From positions 2,790,001 through 2,854,000 of the forward strand of contig NZ_CP019285.1 of NCBI RefSeq assembly GCF_000226975.2: a stretch of 64,000 nt of DNA, written 5' to 3'. This document shows positions 17,511-32,005 of the stretch, piece by piece (the stretch's first letter is position 1; each line of letters starts with the position of its first letter). Source of the DNA: Halobiforma lacisalsi AJ5 (lineage in GTDB: Archaea; Halobacteriota; Halobacteria; Halobacteriales; Natrialbaceae). Both the position numbers and the translations under genes were made by a program. The notes beneath the pieces were generated by a model. That model made no database searches. It was not told the origin of the DNA and saw only the letters and a program-made list of their open reading frames with translations.

Positions 17511-18116
17511 ATGTGGCCAGTAGATTTATACGCGATGAGCGCTGCACCGACCATCGCCACCCCCACGGCGATGGCGAACGCAGGGGCCGTCGACCTGTTC
17601 AAGACGGTCGGTCCGTCGGTTCGTGCCGCCGCCGGGTTTCTCGGCACACTTCTGGTCGCGATGGTCGTCCTCGGCCTCGTGCACGAGCACGGGTTGAAAT
17701 CCGTCGCGAAGGCACGTCGTAGCCCCGTTATTTCGATCTGCGTCGGCCTCCCGGCGACGCTCGTGATCGCAGCCCTGGGATCGACCGGCGCGTTCATCGT
17801 CGGTTCGAGCCTCGGGACGTTCTTCGGCGTTCCGCTCGTGATCCTGGGCGCGGTCGTGCTCCCGGTGCTGACGACGTTCGGCTTCGTCGCGATCGGTGCT
17901 ACCGTCGCCGCCCGTCTCGGCCGCGACCGATTGGGTACCGGTGTCCTCGTCGGGAGCCTGTTGGCCGGCCTCGGCACCCTTTCGCTCCCGTCGGCGATCG
18001 TCCTGACGGGACTGGCCGCGTCGCTCGGCGTCGGTGCGGGCATCCGCGTGCTGGTCGGCGCCGGCGGCTCGAGCCAGCCCGACGACAGAACGGTCCCGCC
18101 CGCGAACAAGATCTGA
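17511..18116 (+). CDS. Small multispanning membrane protein, function unknown
   Basis: 201-residue hydrophobic protein with about four or five predicted membrane segments (roughly residues 38-58, 75-95, 100-130 and 142-180), Gly/Ala/Val-rich, ending in a hydrophilic tail. No family is recognised. It is transcribed opposite to the ribosomal genes and separates rpl11 from rpl1, an uncommon position. A TACTATTTGAAAA element around 17480-17492 would fit leaderless transcription from ATG 17511; ATG 17535 is an alternative start. Confidence 0.72.
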   Translation: MWPVDLYAMSAAPTIATPTAMANAGAVDLFKTVGPSVRAAAGFLGTLLVAMVVLGLVHEHGLKSVAKARRSPVISICVGLPATLVIAALGSTGAFIVGSSLGTFFGVPLVILGAVVLPVLTTFGFVAIGATVAARLGRDRLGTGVLVGSLLAGLGTLSLPSAIVLTGLAASLGVGAGIRVLVGAGGSSQPDDRTVPPANKI

Positions 18117-18560
18117 GCACCCGATCTCACGGCCGACCGGCGGTCCGTCTGGCCACGTCGGACCGTCGTGACGGCCCCGGTTCGTGACTTCCTCGCCGAT
18201 ACTGACGTCCTGTTAGAGCCCCTATAAAACGGGTTTTCCGCCACTTACATCCGCGACGTGGGTGGCCGTGACACGGAGTGTCGCGTCGGCCGTCTTCTAG
18301 GCAGTATCCGTGTCGGCGGGGCAGTCGAACCCCGCGACTCGAGAAACTGACCCCGCCGTGGCCGTCGGCCGATGCGCGATCGGTTCGGGGACGAACGTGG
18401 GCCGAACGAAAGCCGGTGTGAAGAACAACGGTCCAACGCGAAAATCGAACCGGGAGTGGATCGCCAACCTGGAACCGACGCGTCGCTCGAGGACCATTCG
18501 AAACGACGAAGCAGGAATGGAGTCGATCGAGATTCGACTCGAGGAGTCGGCGGTCGTCGA
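18117..18560. other. Gap between membrane-protein gene and rpl11, no gene seen
   Basis: 444 bp with several open frames but none with coherent haloarchaeal coding character or an obvious start. A short GGGG-N8-CCCC dyad near 18318-18333 resembles a tRNA T-arm in reverse, but no cloverleaf can be built. CCCTATAAAACGGG around 18220-18233 looks like a TATA box on the plus strand without a gene behind it. Confidence 0.4.
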
Positions 18561-19049
18561 TTACGCTTCCGCTTCGTCCGCGAGTACGTCGTCGTACTCG
18601 CCGGCGTCGACCTTCTCCTTGAACTCTCGAGCGTCGTCGCCCTCGATGGTGACGCCCATCGAGGCGCAGGTGCCGACGATCTCTTTCGCGGCGTTTTTCG
18701 TGTCGTACGCGAGCAGGTCGGGGTGTTTCTGCTCGGCGATCTGCTTGACCTGGTCGATCGAGAGGTCGGCGACGAAGTCCTCCTGGGGTTCGCCGCTGCC
18801 CGTCTCGAAGTCGGCCTCGTCTTTGATCAGTTCGGCCGTCGGCGGGACGCCGACCTCGATCTCGAAGGAGCCGTCGTCCTCGTAGTCGACCGTGACGGGG
18901 ACCTCGGTCCCGTCGAAGGCCTCGGTCTGATCGTTGATCTCCTGTACGACAGCCTGCACGTCGACGGGCGTCGGTCCGAGCTCGGGACCGAGCGGCGGGC
19001 CGGGGTCGGCCTGGCCACCCGGAACGAGCACTTCGATGGTTCCAGCCAT
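18561..19049 (-). CDS. rpl11: 50S ribosomal protein L11
   Basis: 162-residue archaeal L11, a component of the GTPase-associated centre on 23S rRNA. Characteristic G-G-Q-A-D-P-G-P-P-L-G-P-E-L-G near residues 11-25 and the C-terminal RNA-binding domain with I-A-x-x-K and G-T-C-A-S-M-G-V. The frame runs on to 19412, but the ATG at 19049 (M-A-G-T-I-E-V-L) is the family start and is preceded by its TATA box. It is probably transcribed separately from L1-L10-L12. Confidence 0.97.
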   Translation of the reverse strand: MAGTIEVLVPGGQADPGPPLGPELGPTPVDVQAVVQEINDQTEAFDGTEVPVTVDYEDDGSFEIEVGVPPTAELIKDEADFETGSGEPQEDFVADLSIDQVKQIAEQKHPDLLAYDTKNAAKEIVGTCASMGVTIEGDDAREFKEKVDAGEYDDVLADEAEA

Positions 19050-19070
19050 ACCCGTGACAACCCGTGCGCG

Positions 19071-19082
19071 AGTTTTAAGGGT
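19071..19082 (-). promoter_or_regulatory. TATA box of rpl11
   Basis: Minus-strand ACCCTTAAAACT is centred about 27 bp before the ATG at 19049, so the L11 mRNA should be leaderless, in contrast to the L1 operon. Confidence 0.55.
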
Positions 19083-19149
19083 TGCTTTTTCGGGCAGTCG
19101 GCGTCTGTGATACACTGACGCGGATCCCCGGCCGGTTCCTCCCGTCGGA

Positions 19150-19452
19150 TTACTCCACGCTCTCGTCGCGCCACTCGGCGAACGACTCGAGGACGTGCGC
19201 TTCGTCGAACCGCTCGATACACGGGACGTCGTAGGGATGCAGTTCTTCGACCCGGTCGACGAGGTCGTCGTACGCGTCGACGGTGGTCTTCGCGAGCAGC
19301 GCGACCTCCTCGTCGCGCTGGACCTCGCCGTCCCAGCGGTAGGTCGACGTGATCGGGAACCGATTGACACAGGCGGCAAGTTGCTCCTCGACCAGTCGTC
19401 CGGCGATCGCATCTGCCTCCTCGGGGGGAGCCGTGATGTACGCGGTCGGCAT
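19150..19452 (-). CDS. cutA: CutA1-type divalent-cation tolerance protein
   Basis: 100-residue CutA1 protein, a very stable trimer with a PII-like ferredoxin fold. Signature A-C-V-N-R-F-P-I-T-S-T-Y-R-W-D-G and E-L-H-P-Y-D-V-P-C-I are intact. Linked genetically to copper tolerance in E. coli, but its molecular role is unsettled in archaea. Upstream of rpl11 on the same strand, separated by about 100 bp including the rpl11 promoter. Confidence 0.95.
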   Translation of the reverse strand: MPTAYITAPPEEADAIAGRLVEEQLAACVNRFPITSTYRWDGEVQRDEEVALLAKTTVDAYDDLVDRVEELHPYDVPCIERFDEAHVLESFAEWRDESVE

Positions 19453-19569
19453 CGTCGGGAGCTACGGTCGAGAGGACAAAAAGAGCCGCGAGTCCGCTTT
19501 CGGGCGGCGCTCGAGCAGCGAAAGTCGCTCGCGCGACTGGACGTGAACGCCGGTCAGGGGCCCCGGAGG

Positions 19570-19761
19570 TCAGGAGTCGTTCTCAGCGACCGGATTGAAC
19601 GTGCCGTTGATGTCCCACTCGTGGAGGCAGTGGGGGTTGCCGATCAGTTTCTCGCCATCGTCCCGGTCGAGTTGCCAGGCCTCGAGGTCGTCGTCCCATC
19701 GTTCCGCGCGACCGCACCGTTCGCAGACCCGCGCGGTCGGCGTTCGTACGCGTGCACTCAT
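19570..19761 (-). CDS. HEWD-family small haloarchaeal protein
   Basis: 63-residue protein with one C-E-R-C-G pair near residues 14-17, a C-x-H pair (N-P-H-C-L-H-E-W-D) and the diagnostic H-E-W-D-I-N-G-T-F near the C-terminus. The Cys/His set suggests a small zinc-binding module. Function unknown. ATG 19761 is preferred over longer in-frame options. Confidence 0.85.
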   Translation of the reverse strand: MSARVRTPTARVCERCGRAERWDDDLEAWQLDRDDGEKLIGNPHCLHEWDINGTFNPVAENDS

Positions 19762-19881
19762 TGACGGACCTGGGAACTGGACGCATATAACGATGCGTAC
19801 CCGCGGCAAACAATGCGAGTTGTTCACAAAAGTCTAGGTACGAATCGAGCGCGCCTCGAGCGTCCCGCGCGAGGGACGCGA

Positions 19882-21399
19882 TCAGTACACGGCGTCTTTG
19901 ATCTCGTCCCGGAGATTCTCGAACGTCTCGAGGTACTCGCGGCGTTCCGTACGCAGGTCAGCGAGGGCTTCGTCGTAGTCCTCGACGTGGTCGGGGACGT
20001 AGTAGTCCTCGATCTCGAGGCCGGGAATCGACTGGGGAATCGTCAGCCCGGTTCGGTCGTCCTCGGTCCATTCGATCCGACCGCGGGCGGCTTCCGTGAG
20101 GATCGTGACCGACTCCTGGACGCCGACGTCTTTCGATTGCTCGCCCAGGTAGCCCGTGTTGATGACGTAACAGTCGACGTCCAGTGAGGCGACGAGGTCA
20201 CGGAAGACGTTCCCTTCCTCTCCCTCGGAGCCGATAATGAACGGGTTGGTCCCGACGACACGGATCGATTCGCCCGCTCGAGAGGGGTCGCCCGCGCTGG
20301 TCTCGATCGACTCGCCGAGCATGAACGCGACCGCCGACTGCTCCTCGGTGAGTTTCGCGACCGGCGGCATCAGGGGGTTTCGCGTGATGAAGAAGACCTG
20401 ATCTATCCGCTCCAGGTCGATCTCGTCGTCGGCGCTCTCGAGTTCGTCGCGCTGGACGATCGCCCGCGAGTTGGCAGTGTGGCGATCATCGTCGAAGTCG
20501 ACTGTCCCGTCCTCGTCGACGGCGACGTTCTCCAGGATCGCAGACTCGTCGGTCGCCGCGGCGTAGAGTTCAGGCTGTTCGTCCTCGTCCAGCCCGATCG
20601 TCTTGATGAACAGCCCCTTCCCCTCGCTGCCGGCGACGGAGCCGTCCGGGAGGAGCCCGCAGACGTCGTCCTGTAACATCGCGGCGTCCTCGGGATCCTC
20701 GAGCCAGCAGCCGTGGGACGTCAGCGTCGACTTGCCGGTCGCGGACAGGCCCATGAACACCTGGCCGACCGTCCGCAGGTCGCCGTCGGCGTCGCGGACC
20801 CGGACGCGCTTGCTCCCGGCGTGGAGCCCGAGTCCGCCGCGTTGCTTGATCCGGTACATGAACAGCCGGAGGAACGATTTCTTGGCTTCCCCGGTGTAGT
20901 CGCTGCCCAGTACGGCGGTAACGCCCTCGTCCGGAAGCACGCGGATCGCGGTCTCGTCGTAGTCCGGATCCTGAACGGTGTAGAAGTCGGGCTCGGCGTC
21001 GGGGTCCTCGACGGGTTCGAACAGGTTTGCCCAGGCGAGGGCGATTCGCGCGTGGTCGACCGGCACGAACAGGCGACAACGGAACGTCGCCTCCGGGTGG
21101 CGGCCCATCCGACGGTCGACACAGAGCATCTCCCGTTCGTCCGCGCGGGTAATGGCGTCGTCGACTAGCTCGCGGTCGCGACCGTCGAACTCGTGGTCGA
21201 CGGCGTTTTTCGTCCGATCGGCGCTGCGAGAACGGAACTCGCTGACGTAGGACGGGGAGCCGAACTCGGTGGTCGTCTCCTCGTGGGCGGCGAGTTCACG
21301 CAGTTCCTCGAGCGAGGGGTTGTACCGAACGTTCGACGCGGCGAGTGGGTCGGGAAGCTCCCGTGTGAGCGGGCGGGGCTCCGTCCCGGTTTCGGACAT
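19882..21399 (-). CDS. pckA: Phosphoenolpyruvate carboxykinase (ATP)-type
   Basis: 505-residue ATP-type PEP carboxykinase, making PEP from oxaloacetate in gluconeogenesis. Y-T-G-E-A-K-K-S (168-175) corresponds to the substrate-binding Y-x-G-E-x-K-K. The P-loop G-L-S-A-T-G-K-S-T is at 217-225, a metal-binding D-D pair follows at 244-245 (Q-D-D-V-C), and R-N-P-L-M-P-P lies near 340. Length fits the family. The P-loop Ala in place of Gly and Ser for Thr are mild changes found among archaeal homologues as I recall. Monocistronic and divergent from the actin-fold protein. Confidence 0.9.
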   Translation of the reverse strand: MSETGTEPRPLTRELPDPLAASNVRYNPSLEELRELAAHEETTTEFGSPSYVSEFRSRSADRTKNAVDHEFDGRDRELVDDAITRADEREMLCVDRRMGRHPEATFRCRLFVPVDHARIALAWANLFEPVEDPDAEPDFYTVQDPDYDETAIRVLPDEGVTAVLGSDYTGEAKKSFLRLFMYRIKQRGGLGLHAGSKRVRVRDADGDLRTVGQVFMGLSATGKSTLTSHGCWLEDPEDAAMLQDDVCGLLPDGSVAGSEGKGLFIKTIGLDEDEQPELYAAATDESAILENVAVDEDGTVDFDDDRHTANSRAIVQRDELESADDEIDLERIDQVFFITRNPLMPPVAKLTEEQSAVAFMLGESIETSAGDPSRAGESIRVVGTNPFIIGSEGEEGNVFRDLVASLDVDCYVINTGYLGEQSKDVGVQESVTILTEAARGRIEWTEDDRTGLTIPQSIPGLEIEDYYVPDHVEDYDEALADLRTERREYLETFENLRDEIKDAVY

Positions 21400-21463
21400 A
21401 TACCTAATCCACCATCATCCTGATGTATAAACGTGGAGGATTTTGATCGGAGTGTGTCACTAC

Positions 21464-21556
21464 CTACCCAGACACTAACGAGTATGTCGGGTTCCGAAGC
21501 ACTTCGAGGGCCCGAATAGTCGATTCCTTCTCGAGCGAAGAATGATCATAATCCAT
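21464..21556 (-). CDS. Possible 30-residue peptide
   Basis: In the pckA/actin-fold intergenic region the minus strand encodes M-D-Y-D-H-S-S-L-E-K-E-S-T-I-R-A-L-E-V-L followed by R-N-P-T-Y-S-L-V and a stop. Codon use and an AT-rich upstream region (AAAATTATTTCTTATACG, about 21575-21595) would fit a small gene, but length prevents certainty. Confidence 0.25.
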   Translation of the reverse strand: MDYDHSSLEKESTIRALEVLRNPTYSLVSG

Positions 21557-21697
21557 ATCATTGTAGGAATGTACTCGTATAAGAAATAATTTTATTCTCG
21601 AGTATGGAGGGCGTGTACGTCGATCCGACGGGGAGCAATTTTCAGTTCTGGTATTCGGAACCAAAGCTCCAATACCGGGGTCTCCCTCTTCGAGCGC

Positions 21698-24496
21698 ATG
21701 GTACGCGGTCTCGACATCGGACCGGACGCGATCAGGTCGGCGACCGGTGAGACGGACGCCCCGACGATCGACTCGGAACCGGCCGTCGTCGTCCCGGTCG
21801 ACGACGCAGCCCTCGAGTCGATCGACCACGACGTTCGGACGATCGGCCGAGAAGACGGGAACGACGAGGTGTACGCGGTGGGCTCGAGCGCGGCAACCGT
21901 CGCCGACGCCCTCGGCGAGGACCTCGAGCGGCGATCGATCCTCTCGAATGGAGTTCTCGAGACGTCGACCGACGCGGAAGCGGCGCTGACGGCGACGCTC
22001 GAGTCGATGTTCGGAAACGAAACGGTCGACCGAGTCCGATACGCGACTCCGGAACCGCGGCCGTCGGATCCTGCCGCGGTCGCGGACCACCGGGAGACCG
22101 TCGAGTCCGTTCTCGCCCAGTGGGGAATCGAGGCCGCACCGATCGGCAAGGGGTTCGCCGTCGTCTACGACCAGCTTCGATCGGACAACTACACCGGGAT
22201 CGGGATCTGCCTCGGCCACGGGCACACCAGCTTCTCGCTCGCGTACTACGGCGTCCAGTCGCTGTCGGTGTCGATCCCGCGAGGCAGAGACTGGGTCTGC
22301 GAGCGCGCGGCGTCGGAAACCGACCGTTCGCCGTCGGCCGTTGGGGACGTCCTCGAGACGTTCGAACTGGATCCCGAGACGACGGGGGAGATCGAGAGCG
22401 CGATCGCCGGCGCGTACGACGACCTGATCGGCGACCTGATCGACGCGGTCGTCGACAGGGTTGACGACGGAGCCGTCCAGGATGGCGTCGCGGTCCCGAT
22501 CGCGATCGCGGGCCCCGGTGCGGTCGATGGCCTCGAGTTCCTCGTGGGAGGGCGATTCGACGCCGGCGGACTGGGCGCCTCGATTCGCGGCGTTCGACTG
22601 GCCGACGAGCCGACGGAAAGTGTCGTCAGAGGCGCGCTCGCGGCCGCGTGCGACGACGATTTCGCTGACGGGGACGAGGCCGGGATCCGGGATGCCGACA
22701 TCGACGTCGAATCCGACGAACGACGCGTCCCCACAGCCGATGAGGACGACGGGGAGACCCGCCTCTCGTTCGACGCGATGGCCGACGACGGCGGAAACGA
22801 GGCCGCGGGATCGACCCGCGCCGATCCCGCGACGGACCTCCTCGAGACCCTCTCCGAACGGTTCCCGGACGACGACGAACTCCGCGCGGTCGAAGCCGAA
22901 CTGGACGACGTTCGCGACGAACTCGAGGGGATCGAGGAACGGACCGCGACGCGGGAACGCGTCGTCGCCCTCGAGGATCGGGTCGACGCCCTCGCCGACG
23001 AGGTCGCCGATCTCGAGGAGCGGCGGGAGTCGGACGAGGACGACGCGCTCGCGGACGACCTGGCGGACGACCTCGCGGCGGCGTCGGCGGCGGTCGAAAC
23101 CCTCGAGAAAGACGTCGATGAACTCTCCGCACGGATAGCGGCGGTCGACGGGCTTCCGTCGGCTGTCGAATCGCTCGAGGACGACGCCGACGAGCTAGCG
23201 GACGATCTGGCTGACCTCGCCGAGGAAACGGCCGACGAACGGGACCGTATCCGTGACGACCTCGATTCGGTCCGCGACGACTGCGAGTCGGCGACGGCCG
23301 AACTCGACGCGCTCGAGGATCGCCTCGAGACGGTGGCCGCCGACCTCGACGACGTCCGGGCGGAGCAGGACGACCACGCCCTCGCGAGCGATCTCGACGC
23401 GCTCGAGGACCGACTCGATTCGGCTGCGAACGACCACGAATCGCTCGCAACGGAGGTCGACCGGCTGGCCGAGCGAACGGACGGAATAGATGCGCTCGAG
23501 GATCGACTGGACGATCTCACGGAGCGGGTCGACAGGGTAGACGATCTCACGGAGCGGGTCGATGGACTCGGCGATCGAATCGAACGCGTCGACGACTTCG
23601 AACGGCGGGTCGACGAACTGGAACCGCTGGCGGACCGGATCGACGAACTCGAGGCCGTGAAAACGGAACTCACGGCGCTCGAGGACCGCCTCGACGAGCA
23701 GGGTGATGACGTCGACGCACTCGAGAGCCGCCTCGTGGATCTCGAACGCGTCGAAGAGCGCCTCGAGGAGATCGCGGAAGTACGGGATCGTCTGGACGAA
23801 CTCGAAGGGCAAACTGCGCGTACCGACGACCTCGCGGACGTCGAGGAGCGGTTGGCCGACGTAGCCGATCTGGCGTCGACCGCGGCGGACCGCGAGGCCG
23901 TCGAGGAACTCGAGGACGAGATCGACGCTATCCGCGCAGTCGAGCAGCGGATCGACGACCTCGAGGCTCTCGAACAGCGCGTCGATACCCTCGCCGATCT
24001 CGAGGATCGGACGGTCGACTCCGGAACCGTCGACGGACTCGAGGATCGGCTCCTCGCGCTCGAGGATCGCGACCCGACCGTCGACGACCTGGCTGATCGG
24101 CTCGAGACCCAGAACGCCCGCCTCGACGGCGTTTCGGGCCGCACCGAGGAGGTCGCCGAGCGCCTGGACGCTCTCGATCGCGACCTCGACCCCGGCCTCG
24201 AGTTCGACCCGGCGCGCTCCGAGGACGTGGACGGGCTGGCCGACCGCCTCGACGGCCTCGAGTCCTCCCTCGAGACCGTCGAGACGCGCCTCCGGGCGCT
24301 CGAACCGGACGACGAAAGCGAGGCCGACGGCTCCATCGTCGAATCCGAACTCGCAACCGCGACGCTCGCGGGCGGCGGGGGTGCCGGGCTCGTCGCCGGA
24401 GCCGTCGTCGCGCTCGCCGGCGACGGCACGGTCGGAGCGGGTGCGGCGGCGCTGGGCCTGATTCTCTTGGGCGTCGCGGCCGTCGCGGGTCGCTAA
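21698..24496 (+). CDS. Actin-fold (ASKHA) ATPase-like domain + long coiled coil + C-terminal membrane anchor
   Basis: 932-residue protein of unassigned function. Residues 1-315 read as an actin/Hsp70-like fold: phosphate-1 G-L-D-I-G (4-8), a connect-like G-K-G-F-A-V-V-Y-D-Q-L (150-160), phosphate-2 G-I-C-L-G-H-G-H-T-S-F-S (169-180) and adenosine motif I-A-G-P-G-A-V-D-G-L (270-279). Residues 320-380 are an acidic linker. About 390-870 is heptad-repeat coiled coil full of L-E-D-R-x and V-D-x-L units. The end (about 880-932) has two hydrophobic Gly/Ala segments, a likely membrane hairpin. This architecture suggests a membrane-tethered cytoskeletal or scaffold protein. ATP binding and polymerisation are inference; the phosphate-2 loop is atypical. 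Confidence 0.8.
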   Translation: MVRGLDIGPDAIRSATGETDAPTIDSEPAVVVPVDDAALESIDHDVRTIGREDGNDEVYAVGSSAATVADALGEDLERRSILSNGVLETSTDAEAALTATLESMFGNETVDRVRYATPEPRPSDPAAVADHRETVESVLAQWGIEAAPIGKGFAVVYDQLRSDNYTGIGICLGHGHTSFSLAYYGVQSLSVSIPRGRDWVCERAASETDRSPSAVGDVLETFELDPETTGEIESAIAGAYDDLIGDLIDAVVDRVDDGAVQDGVAVPIAIAGPGAVDGLEFLVGGRFDAGGLGASIRGVRLADEPTESVVRGALAAACDDDFADGDEAGIRDADIDVESDERRVPTADEDDGETRLSFDAMADDGGNEAAGSTRADPATDLLETLSERFPDDDELRAVEAELDDVRDELEGIEERTATRERVVALEDRVDALADEVADLEERRESDEDDALADDLADDLAAASAAVETLEKDVDELSARIAAVDGLPSAVESLEDDADELADDLADLAEETADERDRIRDDLDSVRDDCESATAELDALEDRLETVAADLDDVRAEQDDHALASDLDALEDRLDSAANDHESLATEVDRLAERTDGIDALEDRLDDLTERVDRVDDLTERVDGLGDRIERVDDFERRVDELEPLADRIDELEAVKTELTALEDRLDEQGDDVDALESRLVDLERVEERLEEIAEVRDRLDELEGQTARTDDLADVEERLADVADLASTAADREAVEELEDEIDAIRAVEQRIDDLEALEQRVDTLADLEDRTVDSGTVDGLEDRLLALEDRDPTVDDLADRLETQNARLDGVSGRTEEVAERLDALDRDLDPGLEFDPARSEDVDGLADRLDGLESSLETVETRLRALEPDDESEADGSIVESELATATLAGGGGAGLVAGAVVALAGDGTVGAGAAALGLILLGVAAVAGR

Positions 24497-24510
24497 CCGA
24501 CCGACGGACC

Positions 24511-24879
24511 CTATCTGTCCTCGACGATCGCGTCGTCGGCAACGTTCGGCGCGCCGACGACGAGCACGCGACTCTCCTCGATCGCCCGGATCTGTCGCCA
24601 GGATTCGGGCGACACGACGAGGACGTCCCCGGAGGTGAGTTCGACCACGTCGCGGTCGTCACCGTGTTCGATCGTCACGTCGACGGTCCCCTCGAGGACG
24701 ACGTACAGTTCCTCCTGTTCGTCCTGTCGGTGGGAGGTGTTCTCCTCGCCGGCGTCGTACTCCCAGACGCTCGGCCGCATCCGATCGGGCCGGAGTTCGG
24801 GTCCGATCGGCAGCAGCGTCGGTTCGATGTCGTCGAGTTCGTGGGGCTCGACGTTCTCGAGGTCGACCATCGAGTACAT
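24511..24879 (-). CDS. Cupin-domain protein
   Basis: 122-residue single-domain cupin (beta-barrel). Features: W-E-Y-D-A-G-E, then E-L-Y-V-V-L-E-G-T-V-D-V-T and a later G-D-V-L-V-V-S-P. Only part of the usual metal-binding set is obvious (H after T-S, two Glu), so metal binding is uncertain. I chose ATG 24879 (M-Y-S-M-V-D-L-E-N-V); the frame continues upstream to 25080, with ATG 24960 as a longer option. Convergent with the actin-fold gene, 14 bp apart. Confidence 0.8.
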   Translation of the reverse strand: MYSMVDLENVEPHELDDIEPTLLPIGPELRPDRMRPSVWEYDAGEENTSHRQDEQEELYVVLEGTVDVTIEHGDDRDVVELTSGDVLVVSPESWRQIRAIEESRVLVVGAPNVADDAIVEDR

Positions 24880-25051
24880 AGCAGGGGGTTCCACGATCGG
24901 CAGCAAAAAGCCGCGGCGCTCGTGTTCGTGGTCTTCCCGTCGCCACTGTGGGCGAGCCATCGGCTCCCGCAACGGGTGGTGTACTGCGGAGACACGGGAT
25001 ACAGTAGCTGGGACCGAACGTGACACGCCGAAAGGAGGCCCTACTCCCGGC

Positions 25052-25190
25052 TCAAATCGCGGTTTCCGTTCCGTCACCACGCCGCCGACGGGTGCTGTCG
25101 AGTGCGTCGTCGACCGGTTTCGGCCGGCCGTAGTGGATCCACGCGTACTCGAGCCGTTCGGGAGTGACGTACGTCCCCGTTACTCCTCGG
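25052..25190 (-). other. Coding-like stretch without a clear start, possible gene remnant
   Basis: The minus strand has an open frame with good haloarchaeal codon use encoding T-Y-V-T-P-E-R-L-E-Y-A-W-I-H-Y-G-R-P then K-P-V-D-D-A-L-D and a basic tail, but no ATG/GTG/TTG sits at a plausible place; the frame only reaches an ATG at 25255 inside the MFS gene's end. It may be a small gene with a non-canonical start or a fragment. Confidence 0.25.
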
Positions 25191-25211
25191 CCGCAATCGC
25201 TCCGTCCCCAG

Positions 25212-26441
25212 TCAGCCGTCGTCCGTAACCAGCAAGAGGAGGGCGAGCAGGGCACCGAGCGCGATCGAAGCGGCGAGCAGCCGGAACGAGGTCCGAAATC
25301 CGGCGACGTCCGAGAGCGCGCCGACGATCGCCGGCGCGACGGCCCCGCCGCCCATCAACAGCGTGCGGACGACGCCGAGCCCGCCGCCGGCCACGTCATC
25401 CGGGATCGCCGACATCAGGTACGCACTCCTGACGGGCCTGAACCCGTGCAGACCGAGGCCCGAAGCGACGAGCGCGCCACCGAGCGCGATCGGACCTGCG
25501 GAGCCGGTCAGTGAAACAAAGGCGACGAGCGCGGCCGCCGCGAGCCCGAGCGAGCCGACGACGATCGGGAGCCGACCGATCCGGTCGCTGAGTTCCCCGG
25601 TGACGAGCTGGACCAGGCTCGCCAGAAAGAGCGCGCTGTAGAGCAGGCCGGCCGTCGCCTCCGAGACCCCCGCGGTCTCGGTCAGATACAGTGGGGCGAA
25701 CGCGACCAGCCCGTTGTAGGTGAACGAAAACAGCAGAGTCACGGCCACGAACGTCGTGAGCCGGCGATCACGAAACAGTCCAGCGTACCGGCGGACCTCG
25801 TCGACGTCGATCCCGGTCGCTCCGGTGCCGTCGGCGGCCGCTTCCCCGGGCACTCGATCGGGGACTCGAGCCAGGAACGCGCCCGCGAGGGCGAGCCCCG
25901 CGACTCCCGCAAGGAGGAAGATCACGCGCCAGCTCTCGCCGAACGCGTAGGCGACCCCGCCCGCGGCGACGATGGCAGCCGGGGCGACGACCCCACCGAA
26001 CGCGCCGAAAGTATCGAGCACGCCCAGCGCCCGGCCCGTCCGTGCCGGGTACGCTCGAGAGAGCAACCTGACGGCGACGGTCTTGTGTGCGCCGGTGCCA
26101 GCACCCATGACGAGCATCGCCACGATCAGGACCGGGAACGGCGAGGCGACGACCAGCGAGAGGGCGGCAGCCGCGGCAACGACGGCACCGACGGCGATGA
26201 CAGTGATCGATCCGATCCGATCGGCGAGGACGCCGGACGGGAACTGCACGGCGGCGTAGATCAGCATGAAGCCGGTGAACGCCGATCCGAGAACGGCGTT
26301 CGAGACGCCGTAGCTCTCCTGGAACGGCCCGAAAAGCGGTGGAAAGGCATACCGGAGGAACTTGGCGAGAAACCAGATACCGGCGGTCAGGAGCAACACG
26401 TCGAGTTCGGCGACGCGTCGTCTCGTTCCGGACGGGGACAT
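25212..26441 (-). CDS. MFS transporter
   Basis: 409-residue major facilitator with about 12 hydrophobic helices. The loop 2-3 motif is clear (G-V-L-A-D-R-I-G) and its repeat lies in the second half (G-E-L-S-D-R-I-G-R-L). A hydrophilic central loop around 195-215 (Asp/Gly-rich) separates the two halves. Substrate cannot be deduced; neighbours give no pathway context. It starts with ATG at 26441. Confidence 0.9.
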   Translation of the reverse strand: MSPSGTRRRVAELDVLLLTAGIWFLAKFLRYAFPPLFGPFQESYGVSNAVLGSAFTGFMLIYAAVQFPSGVLADRIGSITVIAVGAVVAAAAALSLVVASPFPVLIVAMLVMGAGTGAHKTVAVRLLSRAYPARTGRALGVLDTFGAFGGVVAPAAIVAAGGVAYAFGESWRVIFLLAGVAGLALAGAFLARVPDRVPGEAAADGTGATGIDVDEVRRYAGLFRDRRLTTFVAVTLLFSFTYNGLVAFAPLYLTETAGVSEATAGLLYSALFLASLVQLVTGELSDRIGRLPIVVGSLGLAAAALVAFVSLTGSAGPIALGGALVASGLGLHGFRPVRSAYLMSAIPDDVAGGGLGVVRTLLMGGGAVAPAIVGALSDVAGFRTSFRLLAASIALGALLALLLLVTDDG

Positions 26442-26580
26442 TCTCGTTCGGGGGACTGAGTCGGCGCACCGAGAACCCTCCGATTACATCGTCGTAATCC
26501 TAGTATGCCATTTAATGTCACATAAGTGTATAGCCACTTAATCGAGAGAATTTATATTCGGGTTCGTCGCAGTAGACGGC

Positions 26581-26763
26581 ATGGCAGTGAACACGACCGC
26601 CGACTGGAGCGATCCGGCAACGTGCCCGTACTGCGGCGACGACCTCGAGTCAGCCGGAGCGGGCTTCGTCGACCACGTCGACGACAACGACCCCTGCAAA
26701 CGCGAGTTCGACCACTGGCGGAACAACATCGCGGGCGACCTCGCCGGCGAGTGGGGCGGTTAA
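26581..26763 (+). CDS. Small haloarchaeal zinc-finger-like protein (probably DUF7501)
   Basis: 60-residue protein with C15-P-Y-C18, H32 and C39 (D-H-V-D-D-N-D-P-C), arranged like a C2HC zinc finger, and a C-terminal F-D-H-W-R-N-N-I-A-G-D. It resembles a widespread haloarchaeal family that I recall as DUF7501. It has an AT-rich promoter (AGAATTTATATTCGGG, about 26546-26562). No function is known; nucleic-acid or protein binding is a guess. Confidence 0.75.
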   Translation: MAVNTTADWSDPATCPYCGDDLESAGAGFVDHVDDNDPCKREFDHWRNNIAGDLAGEWGG

Positions 26764-26936
26764 CGCTCGTATCGAAGCGCACGGCGAGGTAGTCGACGGT
26801 GGCCGTCCTCGGAACGAGTACGGAGAGGCGGTCGCTCGGAGTTGGGCCCGTCCGTCAGGATCGGAGAAAACAGCGAACGCAACGGTTCGCGTCCCGATAT
26901 CGGACGGGAAGCCCCAGAAACGGGAGCGAAACGTGG

Positions 26937-27404
26937 TCAGTCGAAATCCGGGAGGTCCTCCGGCGGTTCGTACTCGGCTTCCCAGTCGATGTACTCCTCC
27001 TTGAGCACCTCCGAGACGACCTGGCCGAACTCCGTTAACTCGGCGTTGATCGACGAGACCGTCCCCCAGGTGTCGAGTTCGGGGTGGTACTCCCGTGCCT
27101 GCCAGTCTTCCGGAATGCCGGGTGCGTGATAGCCGACGCGGTCGGCGAAGTCGTCCCAGAAGAAGTCGAACTCCGAGAAGAGTTCGAGGTCCCGGGCGAT
27201 CTCGTACTCCCGTTCCTCGAGGTCGGTCTCCTCCCGCCAGGCCTCGAACGATTCCTCCCAGGCCCCCTCCTCGAGGAACGTCTGGAGCTCCTCTCGGCGG
27301 TAGTCGACGTCGGTCCCGTCGGCGCTGATCGTCGCGTCCTCGTACTCGTTCGGATCGACGAACTCCAGTTCCGGCGGCGCAGGGGGTTCGACCTCGAGTG
27401 CCAT
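26937..27404 (-). CDS. Acidic haloarchaeal hypothetical protein
   Basis: 155-residue protein, no recognised domain. Very acidic with many aromatic residues (F-S-E-F-D-F-F-W-D-D-F-A-D-R-V-G-Y), predicted mostly helical and soluble. ATG 27404 is chosen; the frame extends 18 codons upstream in a less coding-like stretch. The conserved look of W-x-A-R-E-Y-H-P-E-L suggests a genuine haloarchaeal family rather than a chance frame. Confidence 0.75.
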   Translation of the reverse strand: MALEVEPPAPPELEFVDPNEYEDATISADGTDVDYRREELQTFLEEGAWEESFEAWREETDLEEREYEIARDLELFSEFDFFWDDFADRVGYHAPGIPEDWQAREYHPELDTWGTVSSINAELTEFGQVVSEVLKEEYIDWEAEYEPPEDLPDFD

Positions 27405-27673: not shown

Positions 27674-28366
27674 ATGGAACAGCGCTTCCATCGGTACGGA
27701 CGGCGTCGCGTGCTCGGCGCGATCGGTGCCGGCACCGCGCTCGGACTGGCAGGCTGTCTCGACGACGACTCGACCGACGACAACGACCCGAACGACGGGG
27801 CAGACGGAACCGACGAGACGTCTGACGGGGAGTCTGACTCGAGTGACGCCGATGCCAACGACAATACCGACGAGAATACCGACGATACCCCCTCGGTCGA
27901 AGAGGCCGTGGCGTTCCCGGAGGGGCGGGAGTGTACCGTCTGTAACATGATCGTCGCCGACCATCCCGACTGGAATGCCCAGCTAGTACACGAGGACGGG
28001 CATCGCGAGTTTTTCTGCTCGACAGGCTGTCTGGCCGCCTACTACGCGGTTCCGGAAACGTTCGACGGTCCGGAAACGGAGATCGAAGGCGTCTGGGTGA
28101 CCGACTACGAGAGCGGCGACCTCGTCGACGCGTCCGACGCGTCGTTCGTCCGGGTATCCGATCCCGATCACGTCGACGACGTCATGACGCGCAATCCAAC
28201 CCCGTTCGCCGATCGGGACGAGGCCGAATCGTTCGTCGGCGAGTTCGACGCGTACGACGAGGACGACATCCTCGAACTCTCGGCGTTCGACCGGGACCTC
28301 GCGGAGTACTACCGTGGGAACCTCCTCGAGGGGAACGACGGCGGCGATAACGGACACGATCACTGA
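27674..28366 (+). CDS. nosL: NosL-like copper-binding lipoprotein
   Basis: 230-residue exported lipoprotein. The twin-arginine signal has R10-R11-R12-V-L-G and a lipobox L-A-G-C28. A long Asp/Ser/Thr linker (29-75) follows. The NosL domain has C87-T-V-C90-N-M92, the Cu(I)-binding motif, then F-F-C115-S-T-G-C119-L-A-A-Y. NosL delivers copper to N2O reductase in denitrifiers, but no nosZ/nosD genes are here, so another copper protein may be the client. It ends in a His-containing tail (G-H-D-H). The adjacent membrane gene (38 bp on) may be co-transcribed. Confidence 0.9.
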   Translation: MEQRFHRYGRRRVLGAIGAGTALGLAGCLDDDSTDDNDPNDGADGTDETSDGESDSSDADANDNTDENTDDTPSVEEAVAFPEGRECTVCNMIVADHPDWNAQLVHEDGHREFFCSTGCLAAYYAVPETFDGPETEIEGVWVTDYESGDLVDASDASFVRVSDPDHVDDVMTRNPTPFADRDEAESFVGEFDAYDEDDILELSAFDRDLAEYYRGNLLEGNDGGDNGHDH

Positions 28367-30763: not shown

Positions 30764-32005
30764 ATGGAATACAGTCACCGCTACCACGCCTACCCAACAC
30801 AAGAGGTAGCGGCTGAACTGGAACATCATCTTGACGTTCATCGCCAACTCTACAACCACGTCCGATGTGACTACGAACAAGCCCCGGAAGACGACAAGCC
30901 GAGCGAGTACGACCAGAACAACAAACTTCCCGAGTGGAAACGCAAGTGGCCGGTTTTCGGTGAACTGCACTCGAAGGCCGCACAAGCTACCGTCGCTCGT
31001 TTTCACCGTAACCTCTCGAACCTTCGTAAGAAAAAGGAGAAAGGGTACAAGGTTGGTCGGCTCAAACGGCAAGCACCCACTGAGTACCAGAGCGTGACGT
31101 ACAGTCAGTCTGGTTTTGACCTCGATGAAAAGAGGGGCTACGACAAATACGCATACGTTCGCTTCAGCAAGATTGGCTGGGTCAAAATCCGGTATTCTCG
31201 CCCGATTCCCGACCACACCACCATCAAAGAAGTCACATTCAAGAAAGAGACGACTGGCGAGTGGTTCGTGTCCTTCGGTCTGGAAACCGACGACACCGAC
31301 TTGCCCGAGAAACCCGACGTGGAGTCGCTCGACACGAGCAACAGTGTCGGGATTGACCTCGGCATCCTCAACTACATCCACACATCGGACGGTAAGACCG
31401 TGGATTGGCTCGACCTCGAAGACGACTACGAGCGACTCCGACGCGAGCAACGCAAACTCTCACGGAAAGAGAAGGGGTCGAACAACTACGAGAAACAACG
31501 GCGAGAAGTGGCGAAGGGTAAGCGCCATCTCAAGCGGAAGGTGCTGGACTATCAGCACAAGATTACGACGTGGCTCGTCAAAGAGTACGACGCCGTGTTC
31601 GTGGAAGACCTCAACGTATCAGGGATGCTTCAGGGAGAGGGGAACGCTCGGAACAAGCAGGATGTGGCGTGGCGACAGTTCATCACGCTCCTCGAATACA
31701 AGGCCGACCTCTACGGCGCTCACGTTGTTCAGGTCGAAGCACGAGGGACGACGAAGGAGTGCGCGTCGTGTGGTGTGGAGACGGCGAAGCCCATCTGGGT
31801 CAGGGAACACTCCTGCCCGTCGTGTGGGTTCAAGACAGATCGGGACGCAAATGCGGCGATGAACGTCTTGCAGAGAGGGTTTTCTGAATTAGGGCTGGGA
31901 TGGCCCGAATCAACGCCTGTGGAGACTGTGACCGCTACGGGCACCGCTGATTTTCAGCGCGTGTCTGCAAGTCACGTCATCGAAACAGGAAGCCTGCCCT
32001 CGTGA
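30764..32005 (+). CDS. tnpB: TnpB RNA-guided endonuclease (IS200/IS605 family)
   Basis: 413-residue TnpB. The RuvC catalytic residues appear intact: D198 (V-G-I-D-L-G), E281 (V-F-V-E-D-L-N) and D361 (T-D-R-D-A-N-A-A-M-N). The zinc finger C333-A-S-C336 / C351-P-S-C354 is complete. The N-terminal wedge/REC region includes H-R-Q-L-Y-N. TnpB proteins cut DNA at a TAM-adjacent site chosen by an omega-RNA made from the element's right end and favour retention of the element. No frameshift or stop is seen, so it may be functional. Confidence 0.95.
   Translation: MEYSHRYHAYPTQEVAAELEHHLDVHRQLYNHVRCDYEQAPEDDKPSEYDQNNKLPEWKRKWPVFGELHSKAAQATVARFHRNLSNLRKKKEKGYKVGRLKRQAPTEYQSVTYSQSGFDLDEKRGYDKYAYVRFSKIGWVKIRYSRPIPDHTTIKEVTFKKETTGEWFVSFGLETDDTDLPEKPDVESLDTSNSVGIDLGILNYIHTSDGKTVDWLDLEDDYERLRREQRKLSRKEKGSNNYEKQRREVAKGKRHLKRKVLDYQHKITTWLVKEYDAVFVEDLNVSGMLQGEGNARNKQDVAWRQFITLLEYKADLYGAHVVQVEARGTTKECASCGVETAKPIWVREHSCPSCGFKTDRDANAAMNVLQRGFSELGLGWPESTPVETVTATGTADFQRVSASHVIETGSLPS

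Follow-up and report, generated by a model that had tools for sequence, protein, structure and literature searches.

A long volactin paralogue with a coiled-coil stalk and a probable membrane anchor in Halobiforma lacisalsi and related haloarchaea

The window analyzed here, a stretch of 64,000 nucleotides of Halobiforma lacisalsi AJ5 (contig NZ_CP019285.1, positions 2,790,001 to 2,854,000), contains a gene whose product joins an actin-like domain, a long coiled coil and a hydrophobic end in one chain. The question raised by this locus is whether such a protein builds a filament of its own or serves filaments made by another protein. The reading frame at 21698-24496 of the plus strand is uninterrupted, with ATG at 21698 and a stop codon at 24496, and encodes 932 amino acids. 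The sequence-only reading of this DNA had described the frame, the order of the nucleotide-site motifs, an acidic linker, a heptad coil and a hydrophobic end; all of these were confirmed by the open frame, by comparison with shuffled sequences and by hydropathy. The features, in coordinates of the window, are as follows.

21698..24496, plus strand: coding sequence, with its stop codon, of the long, probably membrane-tethered paralogue of volactin (932 aa); orthologue L001 is 96% identical, with dN/dS 0.28 overall
21698..22654, plus strand: Volactin (actin-like) domain, residues 1-319, from PF25216 and the hhalign match to canonical volactins
21707..21721, plus strand: phosphate-1 motif GLDIG, residues 4-8, with Asp6 conserved in long and short forms
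22148..22150, plus strand: Lys151 at the catalytic Glu position (MreB E140, MamK E143), from alignment with MamK and MreB
22208..22234, plus strand: phosphate-2 motif CLGHGHTSF, residues 171-179, with Asp replaced by Cys and both Gly present in the H. lacisalsi copy
22508..22534, plus strand: adenosine-type motif AGPGAVDGL, residues 271-279, with G272 and G278 invariant in long and short forms
22655..22825, plus strand: acidic linker, residues 320-376, rich in Asp and Glu
22826..24301, plus strand: coiled-coil stalk, residues 377-868, from heptad statistics and AF2 helices at 377-868
24350..24493, plus strand: C-terminal hydrophobic hairpin, a probable membrane anchor, residues 885-932, from hydropathy and a tail motif conserved in family f1

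The connect-like motif PIGKGFAVVY occupies residues 148-157, and the phosphate-2 stretch GICLGHGHTS residues 169-178. Asp and Glu make up 35% of the linker region (residues 320-384), Lys and Arg 8%. Comparison with the 96% identical relative from Halobiforma haloterrestris (L001) demonstrates purifying selection, with dN/dS lowest in the domain (0.19) and higher in the coil (0.37) and the tail (0.43). The whole length of the frame is therefore a maintained protein. Rfam yielded no matches within 18000-27000 of the window.

The actin domain itself is not new and belongs to the known Volactin family. Residues 1-317 match the full length of the PF25216 profile (positions 1-321 of 321; E=4.1e-111, 371.9 bits, the curated cut-off being 35), and all 35 members of alignment A1 match this family as well. 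Comparison of the domain with canonical short volactins by hhalign gives E=2.8e-62 over 315 columns at 31% identity. Volactin (VolA, HVO_2015) was described in 2024 as an actin homologue of Haloferax volcanii that forms dynamic filaments and matters for disk shape (PMC10869688), and was later tied to tissue-like development (PMC7617734). The salactin model NF053533 left the domain unmatched at E<=10, and the NCBIfam FtsA models gave no match either.

The sequence-only reading had proposed an actin-like domain, and this is borne out by the PF25216 match and by the similarity of the volactin profile to solved structures. The profile of canonical volactins matches chains of an actin-like ATPase, which we take from their residue numbering to be MamK, at 4.8e-9 and MreB at 1e-5. 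A mixed profile matches FtsA (7q6d) weakly, at 9.6e-5, and the profile of long forms alone gives weak matches (FtsA, 0.068). An AF2 model of residues 1-331 built from the single sequence reached a pLDDT of 38. The kinship of the volactin domain to actin-like proteins thus rests on sequence comparison.

The second part of the protein has the properties of a stalk. In the coil, the lag-7 autocorrelation of hydrophobicity is 0.25 versus 0.00 +/- 0.04 in shuffled sequences, and the best hydrophobic a/d fraction has a mean of 0.73 versus 0.575 +/- 0.016, with none of 500 shuffles above 0.625. The heptad signal therefore exceeds chance or an effect of composition. AlphaFold2 modeled residues 370-932 as a nearly unbroken helix from 377 to 868 (mean pLDDT 69) and left the tail unmodeled; if the helix is continuous, the stalk would be about 73 nm long. 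Matches of the coil to SMC/Rad50/ASRP, DUF7310, NPV_P10 and similar families were set aside as generic coiled-coil similarity.

Two hydrophobic segments, at about 885-908 and 912-931, close the protein, and their hydrophobicity makes this hairpin a probable membrane anchor. A hydrophobic segment or hairpin terminates every one of 49 long proteins analyzed, which range from 575 to 1263 aa and have spacers of 221-903 residues (median 654). At the level of sequence, the coil and membrane anchor proposed earlier are thereby upheld, since all 49 retain them. Long forms of family f1, the family of H. lacisalsi, retain the tail motif AGGGGAGxVAG...G...A..LG; the tails in families f7 and f10 are hydrophobic, yet unlike those of f1. 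In a genome-wide search, the tail was shared with no other protein of H. lacisalsi.

The true VolA orthologue in this genome is a different gene. A canonical short volactin of 341 aa is encoded at G000:C1:3108909-3109871 and is 34% identical to the domain of the long form, so the 932-aa protein is a second, long paralogue. Among the 391 genomes of the class that were searched, 101 belong to f1; 75 of these have a long form (73 with open frames of at least 649 aa, plus G062 and G104) and 26 do not. Five more were found in two other haloarchaeal families, f7 (G033, G140, G242) and f10 (G135, G260). A short volactin accompanies the long form in each of the 80 genomes that have one. The two forms evolve at different rates: short forms share a median identity of 95%, the long forms of f1 one of 49%. 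Short volactins are also present outside the class, in phylum families f19, f21 and f22, which appear to be methanogen-side lineages; all of these have short open frames. A scan of viral contigs for relatives of volactin found none. Two genomes contain broken volactin genes. In G364, which has no long form, the canonical volactin is split into two pieces separated by about 9 kb (G364:C54:57721-58026 and 66867-67544), as if by insertion or rearrangement. A third volactin copy at G105:C4:12424-13352 is split in two frames, and two intact copies lie on other contigs.

In the tree rooted on 16 short volactins from f19, f21 and f22, all long forms compose one clade with support of 100/99.6, to be read with the caveat of long branches. 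This clade suggests that the long layout probably arose once. The simplest reading of the sequence data would be one duplication in haloarchaea, followed by one gain of the coil and anchor and then by fast evolution. A convergent origin of the f7 and f10 long forms was considered and rejected: their tails differ, but the domain tree groups them with the other long forms. Gene neighborhoods offered no partner. In many f1 genomes the long-form gene is flanked by conserved, seemingly unrelated neighbors, judged by inspection to be an ATP-dependent PEP carboxykinase upstream and a transporter downstream; in other genomes it adjoins an epimerase-like gene. The neighborhoods revealed no operon shared with a short volactin or any other gene of the cytoskeleton.

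The long and short forms differ at the place of the catalytic glutamate. When profiles are aligned, a Glu that is invariant in canonical volactin (in I[DN]EG) coincides with MamK E143 and MreB E140. In MreB this Glu positions the attacking water (PMC4051119), and it corresponds to actin Q137 (PMC9597168). Mutations of the D161 or E143 type abolish the ATPase activity of actins (PMC5059902). Glu occupies this place in all short volactins compared (36/36 haloarchaeal and 16/16 methanogen-side) and in none of the long forms (0/44 in f1 and 0/5 in the other families), where it is replaced by Lys, Thr, Arg and others; the H. lacisalsi protein has Lys151.

Other positions of the site are retained to different degrees. 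The phosphate-1 Asp6 is present in 41 of 44 long forms of f1, in all five other long forms and in 36 of 36 short forms. G173, G175 and T177 of phosphate-2 are all found in the H. lacisalsi copy, but the second phosphate-2 Gly (G175) is kept in only three of the 44 f1 long forms, this copy included. Where actins and MreB have an Asp in phosphate-2, this copy has Cys; the loss of that Asp is not special to the long form, because an invariant Ser already takes its place in canonical short volactins (L002, L122-L137). Such a Ser is itself unusual for a dynamic filament. Thus, the motif residues noted at the locus proved conserved among homologues at phosphate-1 and eroded at phosphate-2 and the catalytic site in the long-form subfamily. 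As judged from these aligned residues, nucleotide binding by the long-form domain is plausible and fast ATP hydrolysis unlikely; the ATP-splitting site is apparently disabled.

A comparison with known systems clarifies what is new in this layout. Residues 1-317 match the whole volactin profile, whereas about 600 further residues (linker, coiled coil and hairpin) and K151 in place of the catalytic Glu distinguish the long form from VolA. Salactin is likewise a haloarchaeal actin-fold filament protein with a domain of similar size; unlike the long form, it has no described coil or anchor, and its distribution over genomes is complementary. MamK and MreB, to which the profile of canonical volactins comes nearest among solved structures, have both the catalytic Glu (E143/E140) and the phosphate-2 Asp, which are replaced in the long form. 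MreB reaches the membrane by a short amphipathic or hydrophobic stretch rather than by a coil and hairpin. FtsA resembles the long form in outline, in that its actin fold serves to attach a filament to the membrane, and is linked to it by a weak profile match. However, the C-terminal element of FtsA is an amphipathic helix and its filament is made of a tubulin homologue, whereas the long volactin has a hairpin and a long coil, and its likely client is an actin filament. Another parallel is provided by SpeMreB3 of Spiroplasma, a natural MreB paralogue without the hydrolysis motif that exists beside active paralogues; its phosphate release is slow and polymerization is retained (PMC9597168). Unlike the long volactin, SpeMreB3 is not known to carry a coil or membrane anchor. 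A literature search over open-licence papers, including those mentioning volactin, retrieved no protein of the volactin-coil-anchor layout. The sequence-only reading knew of no described haloarchaeal protein with this layout either, but the domain belongs to a described family; the long, tethered and apparently silenced volactin subfamily seems to be undescribed.

The explanation that we favor, at a likelihood somewhat short of even, is that a duplicated volactin turned into a membrane-anchored adaptor that serves or captures the filaments of canonical volactin. The hairpin would be inserted in the cytoplasmic membrane, and the coil would self-associate and hold the volactin domain out in the cytoplasm at a distance of roughly 30-130 nm. 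The domain may bind nucleotide without quick hydrolysis and would join or cap dynamic canonical filaments at their end (or side). The latter would thereby be captured, nucleated or stabilized at the membrane by a tether made from the filament subunit itself. The narrower proposal, that a silenced actin paralogue fixed by its hairpin on a coiled-coil stalk of 30-130 nm caps or captures the ends of dynamic actin filaments, is somewhat less likely still. If it is true, an actin-anchoring factor evolved from actin itself, in archaea without any other known volactin-binding protein.

Several observations are consistent with the adaptor. The volactin domain is full-length, the coil and terminal hairpin are kept in 49 proteins, and the coil length is free to vary (221-903 residues), which suits a spacer. 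The contrast between Glu in 52 of 52 short forms and in none of 49 long ones, together with the constant co-occurrence and the fast evolution of the long form, argues for an adaptor and not a self-sufficient filament. In Hfx. volcanii, canonical volactin filaments span the cytoplasm and meet the membrane by their tips only, and tethers at these tips would thus be expected; the same paper calls for volactin-binding factors yet to be found, which fits the adaptor reading (PMC10869688). On the other hand, 26 of the 101 f1 genomes have no long form, and there is no genetic linkage to the short volactin. Moreover, tips are anchored in Hfx. volcanii without a known long form, and hence tethering does not need one everywhere. 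Binding of the long form to canonical volactin is proposed, and the membrane hairpin is a prediction from hydrophobicity. The long-form family is nevertheless a concrete candidate for the factor that holds archaeal actin filaments at the membrane, present in most f1 genomes, and as such it makes predictions: membrane localization, association with volactin and, owing to the lost Glu, slow hydrolysis.

A somewhat unlikely alternative is that the coil leads and the actin fold follows. The protein would then be a membrane-attached, intermediate-filament-like or tethering coil, with the volactin domain as a non-polymerizing module for nucleotide sensing or partner binding. The actin-fold adaptor PilM is a module of this kind. 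No part of the protein is larger than the coil, the subfamily shows an eroded phosphate-2 and no catalytic Glu, and the long-form domain evolves fast; coiled-coil SMC-like proteins are known to affect the shape of Hfx. volcanii (PMC10869688). However, purifying selection (dN/dS 0.19) still maintains the domain as a volactin of full length, with the phosphate-1 Asp kept, and the constant presence of a short volactin suggests a volactin-linked role.

Filament, spacer and anchor in one chain, an autonomous one-protein cytoskeleton whose actin domain polymerizes by itself, was the interpretation offered by the sequence-only reading, and it now appears improbable. The motifs are all in order, both phosphate-2 glycines are present in the H. 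lacisalsi copy, and SpeMreB3 polymerizes without a catalytic motif (PMC9597168). Yet the catalytic Glu is Lys here and is missing from all 49 long forms, and the divergence of the latter (49% versus 95% identity) is unlike that of a filament-former. The loss of Glu, the loss of the second phosphate-2 Gly from most members and the constant company of a separate canonical volactin make an accessory role likelier than a self-sufficient filament.

Most improbable is that the long volactin is a functional stand-in for salactin in lineages without it: the salactin model NF053533 matches 191 of the 391 class genomes (191 of the 311 without a long volactin) and none of the 80 with one, and salactin filaments are anchored at cell poles (PMC10869688), while the long form has its own anchor, but only three families show the pattern, which one to three events may suffice to explain, 26 f1 genomes have neither protein, the domain has no sequence kinship to the salactin model, and salactin is a dynamic filament, whereas the long-form domain looks poor in hydrolysis. 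Salactin, the second haloarchaeal actin, helps to partition DNA. No genome of f1, f7 or f10, that of H. lacisalsi included, was matched by NF053533. The exclusion between salactin and long volactin is phylogenetically clustered and is best taken as a lead. Actin complements of haloarchaea vary by lineage, with volactin and salactin in some families and volactin and the tethered form in others. The salactin model also matches the control genome of Hfx. volcanii above the curated cut-off, which contrasts with a 2025 paper naming volactin as the sole identified actin homologue in this species (PMC7617734).

Two other frames of the window, both on the plus strand, are recognizable by sequence inspection. 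The frame at 27674-28366 starts like a lipoprotein and contains a CTVCNMIV motif that recalls NosL, and the one at 30764-32005 appears to resemble a TnpB-type transposon protein, with zinc-finger cysteines and a DRDANAAMN motif.
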